A stretch of 15,754 nt of DNA from an archaeon (GTDB lineage: Archaea; Hydrothermarchaeota; Hydrothermarchaeia; JALTZZ01; JALUTC01). Within the stretch, counting starts at the first letter, position 1, and each line of letters opens with the position of its first letter. The position numbers and the translations under genes were made by a program. The stretch covers positions 1-15,754 of the forward strand of contig JALTZH010000108.1 of assembly GCA_027051265.1 (NCBI GenBank), in the 5' to 3' direction. Of the stretch, positions 1-12,578 are shown piece by piece. The notes below the pieces were generated by a model. It saw only the letters and a list, made by a program, of their open reading frames with translations. It searched no databases and was not told where the DNA came from.

Positions 1-455
1 CTATAAATGCCTTGAATAGCGTATTTTAAAGCATCCTTATCTATATCTCCAGCGTAAATTTTAATCATGTATTTATCAAGATCTTTTTTTAAGTACTCAT
101 TAACTAACATAGATAGACTATATGCTTCTTGACCAGTTGAACAACCTGCAGACAACATGAAAATCGTTTTCTTCTTGAAAATACTGGGAAATATTTTCTC
201 ATAGATATATTTGAAAACTTCTTTATCTCTGAAAAATTCCGTATAATTTATTGCTATGTAATTTATGAGATATTCCAATTCGTTCTTGTTTTTGACAAGA
301 TATTTGTAATACTCCTGAAAACTTTTTATTTCAAGTTCAGCCATCCTTGATGTAATTCTTCTCATCAAATATTTCTTGTCATAATATCGCATGTTTATAT
401 TAAAATTCCTAGTCATAAGATTTAGGATTATACTGAAAAATTTTTCATCGTTCAT
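1..455 (-). CDS. cheR: CheR chemotaxis methyltransferase, N-terminal part
   Basis: This is an SAM-dependent methyltransferase that methylates glutamates on chemoreceptors. The gene is cut by the left window edge, leaving 151 codons. Visible CheR hallmarks are the N-terminal helical part with RRITSRM (residues 32-38), FFRD (74-77), the SAM-binding motif LSAGCSTGQEAYSL (101-114), and GDID followed by AIQGIY (136-151). The start ATG at 455-453 overlaps the cheD stop as ATGA, the usual sign of translational coupling, and only a weak purine stretch precedes it. It is the last visible gene of the operon; in the cell it should act with CheD on the receptor encoded at the operon's start. The family call is secure. 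The C-terminal end and anything downstream cannot be seen. Confidence 0.93.
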   Translation of the reverse strand, partial: MNDEKFFSIILNLMTRNFNINMRYYDKKYLMRRITSRMAELEIKSFQEYYKYLVKNKNELEYLINYIAINYTEFFRDKEVFKYIYEKIFPSIFKKKTIFMLSAGCSTGQEAYSLSMLVNEYLKKDLDKYMIKIYAGDIDKDALKYAIQGIY

Positions 456-922
456 ATCTCTAACGTATATAAATTTGTTTTAACAATTGCTTTACCTGTA
501 TTTGCATGAAAAAAAACTGTTCTTAAGATTCTTCCACCTACATCTTCACCAACTATTCTTATACCTAAATTTTTTAACGTCTTTTTAACAGATTCCACAT
601 TTTTCTTACCAATACATATCATTCCAGATTGAAATATATCTGATCCTCCAACAATTTTAGCAACGATATCATGTTTATTCGTACCATATTTTTTCATCTC
701 TTCAAGTAAATATATCGCCGCTTTATCTCCAAACTTTGGATATTCCTCATAGCTAATATGACTATCCGACTTAGGTAAAATCACATGAGACATTCCTGCG
801 ATTTTTCTTTTCTTATCGTAAAACATCAAAGCTACACAGGAAGATAACGAATAAGCTACTAGTATGCCATCTTTTTCTAATACTTTTGCTTCACCAATGT
901 TGACTAAAAGTTTAGAAACCAT
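452..922 (-). CDS. cheD: CheD chemoreceptor glutamine deamidase
   Basis: CheD deamidates receptor glutamines and, in characterised systems, binds CheC and stimulates its CheY-P phosphatase activity. The protein has 156 residues, a normal length. The catalytic cysteine lies in SLSSCVALMFYD (Cys29) and the catalytic histidine in GMSHVILP (His46). The glycine-rich motif KIVGGSDIF and a C-terminal GEDVGG stretch are also present. The position six residues before the cysteine, usually threonine in the family, is Ala23 here. The start overlaps cheC1 by 11 bp and is preceded by a strong Shine-Dalgarno AAGGAG four bases upstream. The end overlaps cheR by 4 bp. The family assignment is firm; whether the enzyme is fully active is less certain because of the alanine. 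Confidence 0.93.
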   Translation of the reverse strand: MVSKLLVNIGEAKVLEKDGILVAYSLSSCVALMFYDKKRKIAGMSHVILPKSDSHISYEEYPKFGDKAAIYLLEEMKKYGTNKHDIVAKIVGGSDIFQSGMICIGKKNVESVKKTLKNLGIRIVGEDVGGRILRTVFFHANTGKAIVKTNLYTLEI

Positions 923-1499
923 ATTTCTCCTTAATTATCTTAAACAACTTGTTTAGATTTTCCTTTGATAGCAATAAAGCTATATAGCATATGCTTTCAT
1001 CCTTTTCCAAAAAGATTTTAGTTTCATTTATTATAACTTCCTCATATTTTGAAATATCATCCATGACAATTTTCATTAAAATCTTGTTTATGTTAAGAAC
1101 ATCGATTATTTGAGAATCCGTTGAAATTATTTCAATGTTTAGGAATCTTCCTATTGAATTTATATAGGAATAAGTTATTATATCATTATACCTCATAATC
1201 TTGTATTTATCAATTCTTGTAATTTCTTCTAAACTTTTTCCGAGTAGCTTTTCTAAAAAACTTCTCGTATAAATGTTAAGTATTCCACCAGATAGGTCTC
1301 CTTCTATGTTTGAATATATCGTTAAGCATATATCCTTGTTATTCTTTGATAGCGTAGCAACAAAGTCCTTTATATTCTTAACATAAACTGCTGGTATTGA
1401 AATGTTTATACTTTTATCAATCATACTACCTAAAGCCGTTGAAGCAGATCCAACACCTATATTTCCAATTTCTTTTATAATATCTAAATCCACATCCAT
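912..1499 (-). CDS. cheC: CheC-family CheY-P phosphatase, paralogue 1
   Basis: CheC proteins dephosphorylate CheY-P and bind CheD. The family carries two pseudo-symmetric E-x-x-N active sites. In this 195-residue protein the first is intact in IIKEIGNIGVGSASTAL (Glu10, Asn13). The second, expected near residues 103-106, reads RYND followed by IITYSYINSI, so the glutamate is Arg103 and the asparagine is Asp106. A single functional site is therefore likely. The next gene upstream, separated by 3 bp, is a second CheC. The start ATG is preceded by GGGGTG about seven bases upstream. Tandem and multiple CheC genes are common in motile euryarchaea. The partner specificity of this copy cannot be read from sequence. 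Confidence 0.88.
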   Translation of the reverse strand: MDVDLDIIKEIGNIGVGSASTALGSMIDKSINISIPAVYVKNIKDFVATLSKNNKDICLTIYSNIEGDLSGGILNIYTRSFLEKLLGKSLEEITRIDKYKIMRYNDIITYSYINSIGRFLNIEIISTDSQIIDVLNINKILMKIVMDDISKYEEVIINETKIFLEKDESICYIALLLSKENLNKLFKIIKEKYGF

Positions 1500-1502
1500 T
1501 TT

Positions 1503-2093
1503 TTACACCCCAAAATGTTGTCTTGCGTAATTAATCAATTTGTTAAAATCATCATCCGATACAAACAAAACAAAGTAATTTTCGTAAGGTTTATTTTTAA
1601 CAGATGTTTTAACAATTGTAAGTAACACACGCTCCTTCTTCTCTAATTCGTAAAGTAATACGTTCTCAAATATTTCTCCAATAGTCACATCAACCGTATA
1701 ATCCTGTTTCTCTAAGATAAGAAAAATGTTTAAAAAATTCTTGAGTGATAGCATATAGTACGTTGATAGGAGATTCCCATATCTTATTACTTCATTTATA
1801 TTAATATTGCTCTTCTTAGTAATACACTTAACGAAATCTGACGTAAGTATAAGTAAAAACGTTATCTCAACATTTCCTTTAAATTTTGTAACAATTCCAA
1901 TTGCCTTTTCCTCTAGATTTTTCATTTTTACAAGGATATCTCCGATATTTTTTGTACTAACAATATATAATTCTGGTGGAGAGCTGTCAATACTTAAATT
2001 AACGATGTTTGCTAGTGCTGAAATAGAGTTTCCTATACATATGTTGGTAATTTCTTTGAAGATATCATACTTATATTCCAGATTCTCGTTCAT
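1503..2093 (-). CDS. cheC: CheC-family CheY-P phosphatase, paralogue 2
   Basis: This is a second CheC-like protein of 196 residues. Its first active site is conserved as FKEITNICIGNSISAL (Glu14, Asn17). The second site reads VIRYGNLLSTYYMLSL, which keeps Asn but has Arg in place of Glu, the same replacement as in paralogue 1. The overall match to paralogue 1 is modest, so the duplication is probably old. A strong Shine-Dalgarno GGTGAT (2104-2099) sits five bases before the ATG, and the start overlaps the cheA stop as ATGA. The role inferred is CheY-P dephosphorylation or adaptor function. Archaeal CheC paralogues can also link the chemotaxis system to the archaellum motor (CheC2-CheF in haloarchaea), but no sequence feature shows that here. 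Confidence 0.85.
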   Translation of the reverse strand: MNENLEYKYDIFKEITNICIGNSISALANIVNLSIDSSPPELYIVSTKNIGDILVKMKNLEEKAIGIVTKFKGNVEITFLLILTSDFVKCITKKSNININEVIRYGNLLSTYYMLSLKNFLNIFLILEKQDYTVDVTIGEIFENVLLYELEKKERVLLTIVKTSVKNKPYENYFVLFVSDDDFNKLINYARQHFGV

Positions 2094-3949
2094 AATTCAT
2101 CACCCTTAATTATCTTAAATATATTAAGTATTGGAACAATTTCACCAGAACCAAGTATAGTCATTCCTGAAAATATACTTTCACGCCTATCTATTATAGA
2201 TGTTTCAAAATTCTTTACAACAATATCTTCCATTGAATGAATCCTATCTATTGAAAGACCGTAAAACTTACTTTCTTCTGCTATTATTAATAGATAATTC
2301 TCATCTCCACCTCGTCCAAGACCAAGCTTTTCTTTTAGAGATACTATGGATACTGTTTTATCTCTATGTAAATATAGACAGGCATCATTAAATCGTTTTA
2401 ATCTTTTCTTATCAATCTTTATAATTTCTCCTATTAAATATATAGGAACAGCATACTTTCTATTAAGGACTTCGACGATTAGTGCTTTTATTATTGCTAT
2501 ATTTACTGGAATTTTCAACATAACTCTTGTTCCAACATCTTTCTCTGTTTCTATTAAAACTTTCCCTCCCAGTGCTTCTATTCTTGATTTAACTATATCC
2601 AAACCAAAACCTCTACCAGAATATTGTGTTGCTCCTTCTTTTGTTGAAAAACCTGGCTTAAATATCAGCTCTAAAGCCTTTTCATCCGGTATGTTTAAAT
2701 CGGAGATCATTCCTAGCTCATAAGCTTTTTTCTTAATTTTATCGATATCTATTCCTTTACCATCATCCTCCACAGTTATTATACAGTAATCCTTTTCTCT
2801 TCTTGCAATTAATTTAACATTACCTTTTTTATCCTTTCCTTTCTTTATTCTTTCTTCTGGAGGTTCTATACCGTGATCAATTGCGTTTCTAAGAAGATGT
2901 ATCAAAGCTTCATCTAACTCGTTTATTATGCTTCTATCTATCTCTATATTTTCACCTTCTATTGAGAAGTTTATCTCCTTTCCTAAACTTCTTGATATTT
3001 CACGAACCATTCTATAATACTTTGAAAATATAATTTCAAGAGGAACAAGTCTTATTTCAAGAATTAACCTTTGTAGTTCAGATATGTTTTTATCAAAGAT
3101 ACTTTTTATCTTATCAAGCTCATCCAGATTCTTATCTTTAAGAACATGAGCAAATCTAATCTTTGCAATAGATAATTCTTCGACACAACCCATTAATCGG
3201 TCTAACTGTTCAGATCTAATTTTAATGAACTTAATCTGTTTTCGCTCTTCCTCTTTTTTCTCAACACCTGGAACTTTTTCAGCTTCACGTAGAATTTCAC
3301 CGTCTTTAAATTCTTCTATCTTAGATACTATTTCCGAGATGTTTAAAGAGGATTTTACTTCTTCAACATCTTTATCCGTTTCAATTATGAGAGTAAATTT
3401 ATCAACACCTTTTTCTATCTTATCGAGAGATGGTTCTGATTTGATTATGTTGCTAATCTTTTTAAGATTATAAATGACTTGAAAACACCTTACATCTTTC
3501 ATTTGAGATCTCTTATCAACAGATATCTCAATTCGATATTTTTTCTTTTTGCTAATTTTTCTTTTCTTACTCTGATCAACTTTAATCCTTTGATCTTTTA
3601 GTGACTCAATATCTTTCATAAGTTCTTCTATTCGATCGCTATGTTTCTTTTCTAGGATATCATAAAATATGTCTAAGGACTTATAAATCAATGAAATAAC
3701 GTAATCGTTTAATTCTATATTTCCATTTATTATTTCTTTCAGAATACTTTCCATTTGATGTGCAATTTTTGATAAATCCGATAACCCCACTATTCCTGCA
3801 GATCCTTTAATCGTATGATATATTCTAAAAAGTTCGTTCAAATTGTTTTCGACGTTTTCACCTCTCTCAATCTCTGATAAAATTTTATTCATTCGATTCA
3901 CAAGTTCTTGTAACTCGTATAAAAATTCTTCCAAAATTTCTTCTCTCAT
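2090..3949 (-). CDS. cheA: CheA chemotaxis histidine kinase
   Basis: The central kinase autophosphorylates under receptor control and passes phosphate to CheY. It has 619 residues in the standard order. The HPt (P1) domain carries phospho-acceptor His45 in IYHTIKGSAG. A lysine-rich linker precedes a CheY-docking-like P2 region (about 139-215). The P3 dimerisation helices (about 243-325) contain QLDRLMG. The P4 ATPase has the N box HLLRNAIDHG (351-360), G1 DDGKGI (395-400), the F box FKPGF (430-434) and G2 GRGFG (445-449). A C-terminal P5 CheW-like domain covers about 480-619. No membrane segment is present, so the protein is cytoplasmic and bound to the receptor array. ATGA overlaps join it to cheW upstream and cheC2 downstream. 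No Shine-Dalgarno precedes its ATG, so it probably depends on translational coupling to cheW. Confidence 0.97.
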   Translation of the reverse strand: MREEILEEFLYELQELVNRMNKILSEIERGENVENNLNELFRIYHTIKGSAGIVGLSDLSKIAHQMESILKEIINGNIELNDYVISLIYKSLDIFYDILEKKHSDRIEELMKDIESLKDQRIKVDQSKKRKISKKKKYRIEISVDKRSQMKDVRCFQVIYNLKKISNIIKSEPSLDKIEKGVDKFTLIIETDKDVEEVKSSLNISEIVSKIEEFKDGEILREAEKVPGVEKKEEERKQIKFIKIRSEQLDRLMGCVEELSIAKIRFAHVLKDKNLDELDKIKSIFDKNISELQRLILEIRLVPLEIIFSKYYRMVREISRSLGKEINFSIEGENIEIDRSIINELDEALIHLLRNAIDHGIEPPEERIKKGKDKKGNVKLIARREKDYCIITVEDDGKGIDIDKIKKKAYELGMISDLNIPDEKALELIFKPGFSTKEGATQYSGRGFGLDIVKSRIEALGGKVLIETEKDVGTRVMLKIPVNIAIIKALIVEVLNRKYAVPIYLIGEIIKIDKKRLKRFNDACLYLHRDKTVSIVSLKEKLGLGRGGDENYLLIIAEESKFYGLSIDRIHSMEDIVVKNFETSIIDRRESIFSGMTILGSGEIVPILNIFKIIKGDEL

Positions 3950-4371
3950 ATTTCTGGAGTCAGTATATTATCCAGATTCAAAATTATAATTATATCGTCA
4001 CCTCTTCTTATCAATCCCTTTATATATTTCTCACTTAACTTAACTTCCCCGTATTTAATTTCTTCAATTTCATTTTCAGATACTTTAAGAACACCTTTTA
4101 CTTTATCCACGAGTAATCCGTAAAGTTCATTGTTCTTTTTAACTATTATAATTTTCTTCGAGTTCTCTTTTTTATCTTCTATTCCTATTCTTTTACCTAA
4201 GTCAATTATGGGTATTATTTTACCTCTTAGATTTATTACACCAAGTATAAAATCTGGAACTTTTGGCAAAGGAGTTACTTCCTGATATTTAACAACTTCT
4301 TGAACTTCAGAAATGTCAAGAGCGTATTCATTTTCTCCTATCATAAAAGATACCAAGATTATCTGATCCAT
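3946..4371 (-). CDS. cheW: CheW receptor-kinase coupling protein
   Basis: CheW bridges chemoreceptors and the CheA P5 domain. The 141-residue protein consists of the single CheW SH3-like fold. The N-terminal strand is followed by YALDISEVQEVVKY (16-29), the signature GVINLRGKIIPIIDL (44-58), then GLLVDKVKGVL and a conserved C-terminal strand. The ATG is preceded by a strong GGGGTGAT Shine-Dalgarno that overlaps the cheY stop codon, with 6 bp between the genes. The 3' end overlaps the cheA start as ATGA. Its position between cheY and cheA fits a single signalling operon. It is the only CheW visible in the window. Confidence 0.95.
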   Translation of the reverse strand: MDQIILVSFMIGENEYALDISEVQEVVKYQEVTPLPKVPDFILGVINLRGKIIPIIDLGKRIGIEDKKENSKKIIIVKKNNELYGLLVDKVKGVLKVSENEIEEIKYGEVKLSEKYIKGLIRRGDDIIIILNLDNILTPEI

Positions 4372-4377
4372 TTTTCA

Positions 4378-4740
4378 TCACCCCTGCTTTAAGACGTTCT
4401 CAATTTCTCTAATTACTCCTTCCGCTTGAAATGGTTTAACTATATATCCTTTAGCACCAACTTTTATCGCTTCTTTAACTTTTTCATTTTGTCCTAAACT
4501 TGTACACATAATGATCTTTGCGTTTGGATCCTTTGACACTATTTGCTTAGTAGCTTCAATACCATCCATAACTGGCATTACAATATCCATTAGAACAACA
4601 TCCGGTTTTAGTTTGAAGTACATATCAACAGCTTCCTTTCCATTACTTGCTTCTCCTACAATTTCATATCTCTGTGAGAGGATTTTCTTCAAAATATTTC
4701 TCATAAAGGCTGAATCATCAACTATTAAGATGCGAACCAT
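4378..4740 (-). CDS. cheY: CheY response regulator
   Basis: This single-domain receiver of 120 residues carries the chemotaxis signal to the archaellum motor, in archaea usually through CheF. All receiver residues are present: the acidic pair Asp8-Asp9, phospho-acceptor Asp52 in LMDIVMP, Thr80 and Lys102 in VKPF. No output domain follows. The gene lies 12 bp downstream of the receptor gene and 6 bp upstream of cheW. No Shine-Dalgarno precedes the ATG. An A/T-rich TATA-like stretch over the end of the receptor gene (about 4750-4766) could be an internal promoter, but it is too close to the start to be convincing. The function is clear from family and context; the motor adaptor is not in this window. 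Confidence 0.96.
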   Translation of the reverse strand: MVRILIVDDSAFMRNILKKILSQRYEIVGEASNGKEAVDMYFKLKPDVVLMDIVMPVMDGIEATKQIVSKDPNAKIIMCTSLGQNEKVKEAIKVGAKGYIVKPFQAEGVIREIENVLKQG

Positions 4741-4752
4741 AATATATGGTAT

Positions 4753-6276
4753 TTATAATTTAAACTTCTTCAAAAATGCCTCCAACTCTTCAATCTTTGT
4801 TTTAACTTCTTCTAAACTTTTCATGTAGTTACTTATATTGCTTTCTATTTCTTTGATTGATGCATGAATCTCTTCACTAGCAGCGGCGGTTGATTCAATT
4901 GCAACTGATATTTTATCGGAAAATTCCTCTATTTCTTTAATTTTACCCAATTGTGTCTTTAAGTTTTTACTTATTTCTTCCATTCTCTTCATCACCTTCA
5001 TTATCTCCTCGTAAATTTTGCCAAAGATGTTGATCAAGTCTCCTATTTGATTTGTATACTGTTTTATCAACTCAGTAGATTTGCCTATGGTTTTGTTCAT
5101 GGATTCAATTCTGTTCAATACTTCATTAACAATGTTTTCTATCTGCTCTGCAGATTTGGTTGAATTTTCAGCTAACTTTCTAATCTCATCAGCAACTACA
5201 GCAAATCCTCTTCCATACTCTCCAGCTCTAGCAGCTTCGATTGCGGCATTTAAAGCAAGAAGATTTGTTTGTTCAGCAATTCCAGTTATTACATCTATAA
5301 TCCTTATGATTTGTTTAGATTTCTCACCCAAATCGTTTATTTCGTTTGAAATATTTGTGAAAACATCCAGAGTATTCTTTGTTGCTACGGTTGCTGTTTC
5401 TGCATGACGTTTACCTATATTTATATCCTTTTCTACCTCTTTAAATACGTTAAAGGTTTCATTTGTAAAATTGAAAATGCTTTCAAATACATTTGTAAAG
5501 TTTTTAATCTCGTTGTTTATTTTATCAATGTTAGATGCTAATTGCTGAGCATCATTAGCTATTTGCTCCGTTGCTTTTGTTATTTGTCCTACAGAGCTTT
5601 TACTTTCCTTAATAAAGTTATAAGTTTGATCATATGTGTTTTTAAACATTTCAACATCATCATACATCTGCTTTATTATAGATCTAATATTATCTCTAAT
5701 ATTTAATAATATTTGTTTCATATCTCTAATGGCTTGATTTTTATCCTCGATTTCTAAACTTACGCTTAGATTTCCTTTGGAGATTTCATCTGCAAATTTT
5801 TTCATCGTTTGTATTCCTTGTATTAAAGCTTTGTTTATTTCTACAATCTTTTGTTCTTTTTCTTTGACATTTCTTAAATCGTATAACATTTTAAGAACAG
5901 CAACATTTTCTCCCTTTTTATTTTTTATTGGAGTTGTGTATATTATTACAGGTATCTTTTCACCATTTCTATTGATTATATGAAGTTCTCTTTTGGTTGA
6001 TTTGACTATATTATTTAGAACCATATAGCTTGAACATCTTGGCGTATGACAGGCAGGGTTTTTCTCATAGTGGGTATATTCGTAACAATGCTTTATACCC
6101 ATCAACTCACTTCTACTATAACCAAACAGTTTCTCAGCAGCTGGATTCATATAGATACATAGGAAGTTTCTATCAGTTATATAAGCTGGAATTTCTAAAT
6201 GTTCAAGCATACTAGTTATTATCTTAAATTCAAGACTATCTTTAAAATCTTTGGATAAGCTCAACTTTAGCATCAT
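4753..6276 (-). CDS. Soluble PAS-containing methyl-accepting chemotaxis protein
   Basis: This 507-residue chemoreceptor has no transmembrane segment, so it should sense a cytoplasmic signal. An N-terminal PAS domain (about 18-138) includes [22 protein letters not shown]-like stretch follows (about 157-205, [18 protein letters not shown]). The long helical signalling domain has the conserved hairpin tip [20 protein letters not shown], followed by [18 protein letters not shown]. The PAS domain is unusually rich in Cys and His: Cys40, His63-Cys64, His69, Cys76-His77 and Cys81, which suggests a metal, iron-sulfur or redox ligand set. Two adjacent ATGs are possible. The first (6276) sits seven bases from a strong GAGGTGA Shine-Dalgarno. 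The gene heads the che operon, just downstream of the archaellin genes. Confidence 0.93.
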
Positions 6277-6354: not shown

Positions 6355-7020
6355 TCACTGAAGTTGCATTCTAGTTTCCGTATACAATACTGGAGTAACG
6401 AAATCAATTACACCAGGTGCTCCGAATTCAGGTCTTACAAACCCTGTTACATGCGTCCTTGGTCCAATTCCTCCAAATAAATCTCTTACGTTAACAGTTA
6501 AAGCTACTCTATCTCCTCTATTTATTATAGGAGAATCCTGTCTTACACTTCCATCAGCATCTTGTAGTACAAGTATACCATAGCTGGTTTCCGTAGCATT
6601 TGCAGCACAGGAGAGAGTGGATGTATTTCCAAATTTAGGCCATACGTTGTAGTTATCATCAAATATATCTTTATATTCAATACTATCGTTATAACAATCA
6701 TTATCGTATTTAAGCTCTGCTTGTGTTGTTGAGTTTGAAATCGTTAACTTTGTTGTTCCTAAATCTAATGGTGCCGATCCAGCATTGGGTTCTATAACTA
6801 CAGCTAATTTTATAATTTGGTTTTGTGCTCTATCAATTGCACCATATATTGCAACCACTTTCAACCCTGTAGATACCTCTTCCGTTGTAGTTCTACCAGT
6901 AAGCATTGCTTTCTGTTGAAGGTAGCTAGAGGTTTGTATCAACACACTCGCTGCAACAGCTGCAACGAGAACCATTGCTATGAAAATTATGAGAGTACCT
7001 ATACCTATAGCACCTTTCAT
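6355..7020 (-). CDS. flaB: Archaellin (archaeal flagellin), third in transcription order
   Basis: This is a filament subunit of the archaellum, 221 residues from the start chosen here. That start (ATG 7020-7018) follows GAGGTG with six bases of spacing and gives the class III signal peptide MKG followed by [18 protein letters not shown]. An earlier in-frame ATG at 7068 would put 16 unrelated residues before it and is rejected. Prepilin peptidase should cut after Gly3. The hydrophobic assembly helix covers about 4-29. The exposed part has two cysteines (Cys109, Cys138) that recur in all three copies and four N-glycosylation sequons (N96, N111, N132, N141). The C-terminus [20 protein letters not shown] is typical. 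At the DNA level the gene is a mosaic of the other two copies. It has its own promoter. Confidence 0.95.
   Translation of the reverse strand: MKGAIGIGTLIIFIAMVLVAAVAASVLIQTSSYLQQKAMLTGRTTTEEVSTGLKVVAIYGAIDRAQNQIIKLAVVIEPNAGSAPLDLGTTKLTISNSTTQAELKYDNDCYNDSIEYKDIFDDNYNVWPKFGNTSTLSCAANATETSYGILVLQDADGSVRQDSPIINRGDRVALTVNVRDLFGGIGPRTHVTGFVRPEFGAPGVIDFVTPVLYTETRMQLQ
6404..6453. repeat. 50-bp tract shared by archaellins 3 and 1
   Basis: This stretch is identical to 7996-8045 and encodes the C-terminal archaellin motif around [12 protein letters not shown]. The same motif in the second archaellin uses different synonymous codons. Confidence 0.9.
6899..6984. repeat. 86-bp tract shared by archaellins 3 and 2
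   Basis: This stretch is identical to 7695-7780 and covers the assembly helix and the segment after it. The first archaellin encodes nearly the same residues with many synonymous differences, which points to recent gene conversion between copies 2 and 3. Confidence 0.9.
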
Positions 7021-7026
7021 CTTATA

Positions 7027-7032
7027 CACCTC
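7027..7032 (-). promoter_or_regulatory. RBS deciding the start of the third archaellin
   Basis: GAGGTG on the minus strand lies six bases before ATG 7020 and matches the archaeal 16S 3' end. It supports the internal start that yields the canonical MKG signal peptide rather than the longer reading frame from 7068. Confidence 0.75.
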
Positions 7033-7059
7033 TAAAAAATTAGTTAAGATAAATAATGA

Positions 7060-7078
7060 ACTAGCCATTTGTGCTAGT
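7060..7078 (-). repeat. Inverted repeat in the leader of the third archaellin
   Basis: ACTAGC and GCTAGT form a perfect 6-bp inverted repeat around a 7-base spacer. It lies near the predicted transcription start of the third archaellin gene, so it could act as an operator or as a hairpin at the 5' end of the mRNA. Its function is unknown. Confidence 0.5.
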
Positions 7079-7097
7079 AATTATATAATAATTATAA

Positions 7098-7111
7098 TAT
7101 ATATAAAAATA
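7098..7111 (-). promoter_or_regulatory. TATA box of the third archaellin
   Basis: TATTTTTATATATA on the minus strand lies about 80 bp before the start codon. The implied leader is roughly 50 nucleotides, similar to the spacing at the second archaellin gene. Confidence 0.5.
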
Positions 7112-7135
7112 GATATTTGATTATCTACACATTTA

Positions 7136-7155
7136 AGGCATAAAAAAAATAAAAA
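7136..7155 (-). terminator. T-tract terminator of the second archaellin
   Basis: Just after the stop codon the minus strand carries interrupted T runs ending in ATGCCT. This is the kind of oligo-T signal at which archaeal RNA polymerase stops. An almost identical 20-bp block follows the first archaellin gene (7913-7932). Confidence 0.55.
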
Positions 7156-7162
7156 TTATTCT

Positions 7163-7816
7163 TTACTGTAGAAGAACCACTCTTTGCGTAAATAACGGAG
7201 GTGCTATGAAATCTATCACCCCCGGAGCTCCAAACTCAGGTCTAATAAAACCTGTCACACGAGCTCTTGCAACAATACCTCCAAACAATCCTTTTGCGTT
7301 TATTGTTAGTATTGCTTTGTCTCCACGGTTGATTACAGGTGTTTCGTTACTTAAACTTCCATCCATATCTTGTAAAACGAGAACACCAAAGTTTGTATAA
7401 GAAGCATTTGCACAAGAGGATGCATTTGAACCATATCCCGGCCATACATTGGTATTATCTGAGAATATGTCATAATAAACTATTGTATTATTGAAACATT
7501 TAGGTGTATAAGTTAATTCCGAAAGAATAGTTCCGTTTGATAATGAGAGTTTTACGGTTTTTAAATCGATAGGAGATGATCCAGCATGAAGTGTGATCAT
7601 TATTGCAAGTTTTGCTATTTTTCCTTCCTCAACGGCTCCAAGCACGGCTAAAATATTTATACCAGATGAAATTTCTTCCGTCGTAGTTTTTCCGGTAAGC
7701 ATTGCTTTCTGTTGAAGGTAGCTAGAGGTTTGTATCAACACACTCGCTGCAACAGCTGCAACGAGAACCATTGCTATGAATACTATTAATGTTCCTATTC
7801 CAACAACACCCTTCAT
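7163..7816 (-). CDS. flaB: Archaellin (archaeal flagellin), second in transcription order
   Basis: This archaellum filament subunit has 217 residues. It starts MKG followed by [19 protein letters not shown], a class III signal peptide with cleavage expected after Gly3 and an assembly helix to about residue 29. Cysteines 107 and 135 match those of the sister copies. Several N-x-S/T sequons lie in the central domain (for example NGT, NNT, NAS). The C-terminus [20 protein letters not shown] is family-typical but more diverged from the other two copies. Unlike its sisters it has no visible Shine-Dalgarno; instead a 9-bp inverted repeat in the leader ends four bases before the ATG. An 86-bp tract near its 5' end is identical to the third archaellin gene. 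Its promoter and terminator are separate from theirs. Confidence 0.95.
7695..7780. repeat. 86-bp tract shared by archaellins 2 and 3
   Basis: This is the partner of 6899-6984, identical over 86 bp. Confidence 0.9.
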
Positions 7817-7820
7817 AAAA

Positions 7821-7859
7821 ATTTATTAGCTACACGTCTCTATGTATATTCTAATAAAT
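7821..7859 (-). repeat. 9-bp inverted repeat in the leader of the second archaellin
   Basis: ATTTATTAG (7821-7829) and CTAATAAAT (7851-7859) are perfect inverted arms around 21 bases. In the mRNA this A/U-rich hairpin would end four nucleotides before the AUG of an archaellin that lacks a Shine-Dalgarno. It could control translation or be a DNA operator. Confidence 0.55.
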
Positions 7860-7885
7860 ATTAATGTATATGTTTACATAAGAAC

Positions 7886-7900
7886 GCATATATATAAATA
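7886..7900 (-). promoter_or_regulatory. TATA box of the second archaellin
   Basis: TATTTATATATATGC on the minus strand lies about 75 bp before the start codon. It implies a leader of roughly 50 nucleotides that contains the 9-bp inverted repeat. Confidence 0.5.
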
Positions 7901-7912
7901 CCTACAATCTAC

Positions 7913-7932
7913 AGGCATAAAAAAATAAAAAA
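7913..7932 (-). terminator. T-tract terminator of the first archaellin
   Basis: Fifteen bases after the stop codon the minus strand has two T runs followed by ATGCCT, nearly the same block as at 7136-7155. It probably ends transcription of the first archaellin gene before the promoter of the second. Confidence 0.55.
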
Positions 7933-7946
7933 TTAAAGTTTTAGGA

Positions 7947-8606
7947 TTATTGCAATTGTACTCTTTCTTCAGTAAATAGTACTGGGGTAACGAAGTCAAT
8001 TACACCAGGTGCTCCGAATTCAGGTCTTACAAACCCTGTTACATGTGTCCTTGGCGTTAATCCACCGAACAATCCATCTACGTTAACCGTTAAAGCTACT
8101 CTGTCTCCTCTAGTTAATATAGGTGTAGAGCTTGTTATACTATTATCGGTATCCTGTAATACTATTATACCGAAGTAGTTTGATGTTACATTTACACAAT
8201 TTGTACCTTCACCTGGCCATGCATCAACAGTAGTTCCATCGAAGAGGTCGTTGTAACTTTTACTAGATGCAAAACAACTTGAATTGTATTCGAGTTCAGC
8301 TTGCTTCTTAGAATCTGAGATTGTTACTTTCGTAGTACCTAAATCAATTGGTATTGAACCTGCATTTGGTTCAACTATTATAGCTAGTTTAATTACTTCC
8401 TGAGGTGATGCTGAAATATTTACAGCACCATATACAGCAATTACTTTTAATCCCGTAGATACTTCCTCTGTTGTAGTCTTTCCAGTTAACATTGCCTTCT
8501 GTTGTAAGAAGCTAGAGGTTTGTATTAATACACTAGATGCAACTGCTGCAATCAATACCATTGCTATGAATACTATCAGTGTTCCTATACCTATAGCACC
8601 TTTCAT
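7947..8606 (-). CDS. flaB: Archaellin (archaeal flagellin), first in transcription order
   Basis: This archaellum filament subunit has 219 residues from ATG 8606. An ATG two codons earlier (8612) is possible, but the Shine-Dalgarno GGTGAT (8616-8611) overlaps it and is well placed for 8606. The chosen start also gives the same MKG signal peptide as the sister genes, followed by [20 protein letters not shown]. Cys111 and Cys137 correspond to the cysteine pair of the other copies. Sequons include NIS, NSS and NVT. The C-terminus [20 protein letters not shown] is identical to that of the third archaellin. The gene is divergent from the radical SAM gene, with a repeat-rich region of 136 bp between the start codons. 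It is the first of three separately terminated archaellin units; no arlC-arlJ genes follow them here. Confidence 0.95.
7996..8045. repeat. 50-bp tract shared by archaellins 1 and 3
   Basis: This is the partner of 6404-6453, identical over 50 bp in the 3' part of the first archaellin gene. Confidence 0.9.
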
Positions 8607-8610
8607 TTGC

Positions 8611-8616
8611 AATCAC
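8611..8616 (-). promoter_or_regulatory. RBS deciding the start of the first archaellin
   Basis: GGTGAT on the minus strand is complementary to the archaeal 16S 3' end and lies four bases before ATG 8606. It overlaps the alternative ATG at 8612, so 8606 is favoured. Confidence 0.6.
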
Positions 8617-10352: not shown

Positions 10353-11324
10353 TTAAGGTTTCCATTCTGGTACTTTTTCTAAGGTTTTTTCATCGATTGC
10401 AACAGGATAGAAAAGTTGTTTACCAATTCCTTTTTTAACTTTTTTTGTATTTGGATCTATTATGTACTTTCTACCATAATCGTATATTATTCTCTGACCT
10501 TCTGGACCTGTTATAAAGGCTACATACAACATTGCAACCTCATAATTTATATCTGGATGTTTACTAGGATTCACAACCATTACATGATATGGATTGAACA
10601 ACTCTTTGCCACCAGAGAATAATATATCCAGATTGTTAAGTTTATCTTTCAAGGCCAAATACGTTCCAATATCTGCAAGAGTATATGCTTTTAATTCATT
10701 TGCCATTATTAATGTCTCAGCCATTCCTTTACCTATGCTTTTATACCACGTCCCTTTTGGTTTTATTTTTAAATTTTCCCAAATGCTTAATTCTTTCAAG
10801 TGCGTTCCCGATTGATCTCCCCTAGAAATAAATATAGCTTTACCATTTTCACCAGCTTTTGCTATGAGTTTAAATGCTTCAGAAGCCGATTTGGCAACTC
10901 TAATGTTTGCTGGATCATCTTTAGGACCAACTATAATGAAATAGTTGTACATTACGTATCTTCTGTTAACATAAGAACCAATTTCTCTATATACGTGTTC
11001 AGCATCTTTTTTTAGTTTATAATATTCGACTTCCTTTTTTGGTGCATGAACAATTACCAAATCTGCATCTCCCAAACTAGCTATCTTTAAAGCTTTTCCC
11101 GTCCCAACGCATATCAGTTTTATTTTCACGCCATATTTTTCTTCAAATTTTTTATTCAAAGCATCAGCTAATCCCGTTGCACAAAAGCTTGTAGTAGTTG
11201 CAATTATAAGCTCTTTATCTTTAAACATTGTTGTCATTGTTTCATTTTTTTCTATTTCAATGGTCTTTTGAGTACATGCAGCGAGAAGAATTATCAAAAA
11301 TATTACAAATAAATAGCCTCTCAT
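10353..11324 (-). CDS. tupA: TupA-like tungstate/molybdate-binding lipoprotein
   Basis: This is the substrate-binding component of an ABC transporter for an oxyanion, most likely tungstate. The protein has 323 residues. A short hydrophobic signal ends in the lipobox LAAC (Cys17), so it should be lipid-anchored on the cell surface. Family features are IIATTTSFCATGL (40-52), with the anion-binding TTTS, then VGTGKALKIASLGDADLVIVH, VMYNYFIIVGPKDDPANI, the SRGDQSGTH stretch and a C-terminal TGPEGQRIIYDYGR. The residues after TTTS are usually polar (T-R-D-S); here they are F-C-A-T, with Cys48 in the loop. No permease or ATPase gene lies beside it in the window, so its transporter partners must be elsewhere. 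A TATA box about 26 bp upstream indicates a leaderless mRNA. Molybdate, sulfate or phosphate are less likely ligands. Confidence 0.8.
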   Translation of the reverse strand: MRGYLFVIFLIILLAACTQKTIEIEKNETMTTMFKDKELIIATTTSFCATGLADALNKKFEEKYGVKIKLICVGTGKALKIASLGDADLVIVHAPKKEVEYYKLKKDAEHVYREIGSYVNRRYVMYNYFIIVGPKDDPANIRVAKSASEAFKLIAKAGENGKAIFISRGDQSGTHLKELSIWENLKIKPKGTWYKSIGKGMAETLIMANELKAYTLADIGTYLALKDKLNNLDILFSGGKELFNPYHVMVVNPSKHPDINYEVAMLYVAFITGPEGQRIIYDYGRKYIIDPNTKKVKKGIGKQLFYPVAIDEKTLEKVPEWKP

Positions 11325-11396: not shown

Positions 11397-11448
11397 TCAG
11401 ACTTGCTACTTCTCATCATAATTTTCAGGATGAGCTGGGTTTCATCAT
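11397..11448 (-). ncRNA. C/D box sRNA with two guides
   Basis: On the minus strand all four boxes occur in order with canonical spacing. Box C is ATGATGA (11448-11442), followed by a 13-nt guide. Box D' is CTGA (11428-11425), then a 5-nt spacer. Box C' is ATGATGA (11419-11413), followed by a 12-nt guide. Box D is CTGA (11400-11397). Such RNAs direct ribose 2'-O-methylation by fibrillarin, Nop5 and L7Ae. The D' guide AACCCAGCTCATC is complementary to the conserved 23S stretch UGAGCUGGGUU in the peptidyl-transferase region, as recalled. By the fifth-base rule the target would be the A that I map to E. coli A2577. The D guide GAAGTAGCAAGT has no target I recognise. A TATA-like AAAATATATG lies about 20 bp upstream. 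The boxes are certain; expression is inferred. Confidence 0.85.
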
Positions 11449-11678: not shown

Positions 11679-12578
11679 TTAAAAGTTAATATATATTTTA
11701 TTTCTATTACCAATTCTTCTCTTCTTTATTAATCCCCGTTTTTCAAGTTCGGATAAGATTTTACTAACTTTAGCCTTAGAAAAATTTGTAATCTCTTCAA
11801 TTTTTTTCTGTTCAATACCGTTTTTTCTCATAATGATTTTTAGCACATATATTTCATCATCTCTAAGTCCTTTTGTTACTCTTTCAAATCGTATTTTTCT
11901 CAAATAATATCTTAATACAAATATAACTGTAAGAATTAGCAAAGTAAGTATAACAATATGATTATAGTTAGTGATTCTTTTTTCTGGTTGAATTGTAACC
12001 TTTTCAACATATGTTAAAAACAACGCTACCTTAAATAACCCTCTACGATTTTTAAATTCGATCACATAATAATTATCTCCCAGTTTTATATCGGAATAAG
12101 GTATGATATCAAGGAGATTGTATTTCTTTGATACAAATATTCGCATGGTATAATTTATAACATTTGCCTGAACAATATCCGATATTATTACAGTGTAGTG
12201 CTTAGATATCGTATTATTTTCTGTTTTAGTAAATGTTATGTATGAAATGTTTTCAAAAACATATTTTACTCTTGCATAACTTATATTTTTAGGAAAGAAA
12301 ATCGTTATGTATCTCAAATTTCCTTCCCTTTTAACGATATAAAACAATTCGTTGTTATCTTCATCAAGTATTTTCAAAGAATCATATGAGTCTTGGAAAA
12401 CATAGGTAAATCTATCAAACAATTTATTTGAAGCAATTGTTATATATATTTCCTTCAATAATTTATCATCATAAAAATATATATGTGAAGTGTAATCTAA
12501 AATTTCGATACTCCATACATTTTCCAGAACTAATGTTATAAAAAGAAACAAAATTATGAAACACAACTTTTTTCTCAT
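11679..12578 (-). CDS. Membrane-anchored winged-helix regulator-like protein
   Basis: I do not recognise a named family for the full protein of 299 residues. The N-terminus is a signal peptide or membrane anchor (about 4-23). It is followed by a strand-rich domain of about 180 residues that should lie outside the membrane and carries several N-x-S/T sequons (NIS, NNT, NYT). A transmembrane helix follows (about 207-224, HIVILTLLILTVIFVLRY). The C-terminal cytoplasmic domain (about 236-299) is a MarR/IclR-like winged helix, with recognition helix around KAKVSKILSELEKRGLIKK and a basic wing RRIGNRNKIYI. The layout suggests an outside signal passed to a DNA-binding domain. The gene is divergent from trpS with 39 bp between start codons, so the two promoters overlap and both mRNAs should have almost no leader. 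Target genes are unknown. Confidence 0.75.
   Translation of the reverse strand: MRKKLCFIILFLFITLVLENVWSIEILDYTSHIYFYDDKLLKEIYITIASNKLFDRFTYVFQDSYDSLKILDEDNNELFYIVKREGNLRYITIFFPKNISYARVKYVFENISYITFTKTENNTISKHYTVIISDIVQANVINYTMRIFVSKKYNLLDIIPYSDIKLGDNYYVIEFKNRRGLFKVALFLTYVEKVTIQPEKRITNYNHIVILTLLILTVIFVLRYYLRKIRFERVTKGLRDDEIYVLKIIMRKNGIEQKKIEEITNFSKAKVSKILSELEKRGLIKKRRIGNRNKIYINF

Follow-up and report, generated by a model that had tools for sequence, protein, structure and literature searches.

A predicted double-guide C/D box sRNA directed at the 23S peptidyl-transferase region in a hydrothermarchaeal genome

In archaeal C/D ribonucleoproteins (RNPs), L7Ae, Nop5, and fibrillarin bind both box motifs of a small guide RNA (sRNA) and methylate the targets of its guides. 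The hallmarks of such an sRNA are outer C (RUGAUGA) and D (CUGA) boxes, C' and D' boxes between them, guides of ~9–13 nt, a short D'–C' spacer, and complementarity to a stable RNA in which the fifth nucleotide from D or D' is paired. Double guides made up 262 of 489 archaeal C/D sRNAs in one study, and double pairing has been proposed to help rRNA fold (PMC4644070). The two sites targeted by a double guide are often less than 100 nt apart (PMC4644070; PMC7994747). Here, we compare with this class a locus in a 15,754-nt stretch of DNA, hereafter the window, from a member of the Hydrothermarchaeota (contig JALTZH010000108.1 of assembly GCA_027051265.1).

A first-pass annotation had proposed a canonical double-guide C/D box sRNA at positions 11397–11448 and stated no strand; the coordinates held, and the RNA was assigned here to the minus strand. 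Its features are as follows, with target positions in E. coli numbering.

11397..11448, minus strand: 52-nt C/D box sRNA core, C box through D box; full pattern match, kept in the congener at G001:C101:5019-5068
11442..11448, minus strand: C box AUGAUGA, exact match to RUGAUGA
11429..11441, minus strand: D' guide AACCCAGCUCAUC, 13 nt; target 23S 2575–2585, predicted Am2577
11425..11428, minus strand: D' box CUGA, exact
11420..11424, minus strand: D'–C' spacer AAAUU, 5 nt; different in the congener
11413..11419, minus strand: C' box AUGAUGA, exact
11401..11412, minus strand: D guide GAAGUAGCAAGU, 12 nt; target 23S 2491–2501, predicted Gm2494
11397..11400, minus strand: D box CUGA, exact

Read from 11448 to 11397, the order is C box, 13-nt guide, D' box, 5-nt spacer, C' box, 12-nt guide, and D box. 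All four boxes are exact consensus, and the guides and spacer have the lengths typical of archaeal C/D sRNAs; each of these elements was as the annotation had described it. The sRNA folds only weakly by itself (z = −1.59), and a weak fold of their own is expected of C/D RNAs. The box anatomy, a copy in a congener, and the 23S pairing of both guides support the assignment to this class, and we put at roughly 0.93 the probability that the minus strand of 11397–11448 is the gene for a canonical archaeal double-guide C/D box sRNA with Am2577 and Gm2494 as its predicted marks in 23S rRNA. The RNA is a clear but ordinary representative of an established sRNA class.

The same RNA was found in the one other genome of the genus that was compared. 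Its D guide is identical there, while 11 of the 13 bases of the D' guide are the same; the two differing bases adjoin the D' box, outside the 11-nt target pairing, and the congener guide would make 12 Watson–Crick pairs with the class target. All four boxes of the congener copy still fit the consensus (C and C' match RUGAUGA in both genomes, the first base being A or G), and the guides are again 13 and 12 nt long. The spacer, 3 nt in the congener, and the flanks have diverged. The surroundings are also unlike: the window's RNA is flanked by two same-strand protein genes, encoding a solute-binding protein (10353–11324) and a C-terminal winged-helix protein (11679–12578), whereas the congener locus neighbors HMG-CoA reductase and a flavoprotein. 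Boxes not conserved in close relatives had been named as evidence that would count against an sRNA, and in the congener both boxes and guides were kept. A guide RNA would be expected to leave just this pattern, in which only the boxes and guides are retained and the genomic site differs. Searches of other genera of the class recovered neither guide in its window form, which agrees with the fast turnover of archaeal guides (PMC7994747).

When 84,980 species genomes were searched for the exact guide pattern, a single match appeared, in a MAG labeled as bacterial (L003); it was set aside as chance, since no C' box follows it and the sequence is seemingly coding. A looser pattern for A2577 guides had matches, mostly short, in 11 of 297 archaeal genomes. 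In other archaea, the sequence AUGAUUAUCCAGCUCA-NN-CUGA (L047 and L053, in G135 and G246) may represent an independent A2577 guide.

None of the assemblies of the window's organism, its congener, and the same-order relative contains a 23S gene, so guide targets were evaluated in 23S rRNAs of the same class (L004–L010; L011 lies outside the class). The D' guide forms 11 Watson–Crick pairs and one G–U pair with UGAGCUGGGUU (E. coli 2575–2585) in every class 23S compared, which places A2577 opposite the fifth base from D'. This is the target and the base that the annotation had named, and the 11-nt pairing recurs in every readable same-class 23S. The D guide makes 11 pairs with CUUGCUACUUC (E. 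coli 2491–2501) in five class 23S rRNAs and 10 pairs plus one G–U in a sixth, the seventh having unknown bases at the site; here, G2494 lies opposite the fifth base from D. Complementarity to a stable RNA with the fifth nucleotide paired was thereby observed for both guides in class 23S rRNAs. With shuffled guides, an 11-nt run arose in 1 of 300 and 0 of 300 trials, and pairing in the correct register reached at most 9 and 8 nt. G2494 lies 83 nt upstream of A2577, both in domain V within the peptidyl-transferase region, and this distance fits the <100-nt rule of double guides (PMC4644070; PMC7994747). Because the D guide also pairs with 23S rRNA, the window's RNA is, judged by its complementarity, a true double-guide 23S sRNA.

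We infer that the sRNA is transcribed, assembled into an RNP, active in methylation, and able to act as a chaperone. L7Ae, Nop5, and fibrillarin would assemble on its C/D and C'/D' motifs, and the D' and D guides would place fibrillarin on A2577 and G2494, respectively, for 2'-O-methylation of 23S rRNA. Both 23S strands would be held at once, probably aiding the folding of the peptidyl-transferase region. The two guides most likely direct two methyl marks at the catalytic center of 23S rRNA. A stronger proposal, possible but doubtful, is that one sRNA clamps the 3' strand of H89 (2491–2501) together with the strand that leads into the peptidyl-transferase loop (2575–2585), coupling an undescribed Gm2494 to Am2577 as a folding checkpoint in this archaeal genus.

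It is unlikely that the sRNA is mainly a folding chaperone for the H89 and H90 strands of the peptidyl-transferase region, with methylation secondary, an account that overlaps with the explanation above and differs from it in emphasis. The placement of the targets on separate strands 83 nt apart would suit such a role, which has been suggested for double guides generally (PMC4644070), but with perfect boxes, and with the fifth base paired at each target, methylation is predicted to be active.

Less probable still is that this is a real C/D RNA with a genuine rRNA target for its D' guide only. The first-pass annotation had taken the D guide for an orphan or a tRNA guide, a suggestion that the pairing with 2491–2501 displaces. 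Since the assembly lacks the organism's own 23S gene, the D target is seen in relatives, which leaves this account some room. It is opposed by the identity of the D guide in the congener, by 10–11 nt of pairing in the correct register in six of the six class rRNAs readable at 2491–2501, and by a distance of less than 100 nt between the D and D' targets. The two other matches to the 10-nt target core in the window's own genome lie outside tRNAs. The tRNAs compared, a part of the full set, gave no support for a tRNA as the D-guide target.

The D-target variant was also considered as a signature of the class and was ruled out because no fewer than two further archaeal lineages (G110, G123) share the sequence; a one-base variant of it occurs in a third (G051). 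Separately, in the 23S rRNAs L004–L009, H89 base pairs at E. coli positions 2455–2456 and 2495–2496 seem to have changed jointly from their E. coli state (GC to AG and GC to CU). In this part of the peptidyl-transferase region, the change would be compensatory, and its 3' side is also found in other archaeal lineages.

The four-box pattern matched once in the window and never in 30 Mb of sequence simulated with the window's dinucleotide composition, and even a loosened version is expected only 0.0005 times per window. The half-motif TGATGA-N9-14-CTGA occurs three times against 0.24 expected, a count that no shuffle reached, and two of the three lie in tandem at 11397–11448. A scan for bacterial-type promoters and terminators at the sRNA returned nothing above chance; the sequence there is AT-rich, and archaeal signals are not judgeable in it. 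A chance motif in AT-rich intergenic DNA, or a degenerate sRNA pseudogene, has a negligible probability: the base composition and the lack of promoter or terminator signals above chance would permit either, but the expected number is far below 0.001, and the boxes and target-pairing guide bases are kept in the congener at another genomic site where the surrounding bases have drifted.

The assembly around the window is fragmented (1.46 Mb in 257 contigs), and the genomic setting comprises archaellin-like and chemotaxis genes and the archaeal tRNA methyltransferase Trm56. Three similar consecutive archaellin-like genes, identified by their translations, lie on the minus strand at 6355–8612, upstream of a chemotaxis gene cluster (452–6276). 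The genome encodes both fibrillarin (PF01269, E = 3.3e-95) and Nop5 (PF01798, E = 3.8e-64). A strict C–D'–C' pattern gave 19 matches genome-wide (~18 distinct RNAs) and 0 in the reversed control, so that ~17 canonical C/D RNAs accompany the window's RNA; the same-genus and same-order genomes had 26 and 9 matches. Because of these counts, we regard the window's RNA as part of the normal C/D repertoire of its genome.

Two further loci in this genome are described as separate observations. At G000:C256:1511-1591 (L057), two C/D RNAs lie head to tail, the last base of the first D box being part of the second C box (CUGAUGAUGA). The D' guide of the first RNA, AGGAGGUGAUCA, has 11-nt complementarity to GAUCACCUCCU, which we take to be the universal 16S 3' end, in the anti-Shine–Dalgarno region; by the fifth-base rule, the methylated base would be C1533 (E. 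coli numbering). Another C/D RNA (G000:C12:5418-5450) and the Nop5 gene lie on opposite strands, ~80 nt apart. The D' guide of this RNA, AUGAUGGGCGAA, makes 9–11 nt of pairing with the A-loop region (UUCGCCCAUCAA) in 23S rRNAs of the class, and a near-identical counterpart occurs in the same-order genome.

Among described families, Rfam RF00095 (snoPyro_CD, a Pyrococcus C/D sRNA) was the best covariance-model match, over the whole model and on the minus strand; at 32.3 bits against a gathering score of 45 bits, the window's RNA is no member by that measure, and a search of the window at the gathering threshold gave no match. In their main text, the archaeal C/D sRNA studies compared name neither A2577 nor G2494 as a C/D target and do not join them in one RNA; on a comparison with main text, novelty of the sites cannot be claimed. 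In yeast, snR71 guides Am2946 of 25S rRNA, 25 nt after Um2921, and the listing has no mark at 2863, the equivalent of G2494 (PMC8307265). E. coli A2577 is likewise 25 nt after U2552, and by this equal distance it corresponds to Am2946, so the equivalence that the annotation had given is consistent with the yeast listing. As snR71 is a eukaryotic snoRNA, the likeness is one of target site, with no homology claimed. A2577 would then be an RNA-guided methylation site in both archaea and yeast, and G2494 is a concrete, testable additional site. For an archaeal lineage known here from genome assemblies alone, the locus contributes a well-supported double-guide RNA and two marks predicted at the catalytic center of the ribosome. 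Beyond that, it is the kind of RNA to be expected in an ordinary archaeal C/D repertoire, resembling described double guides in its four boxes, guide lengths, short D'–C' spacer, and rRNA targets less than 100 nt apart near the peptidyl-transferase center.
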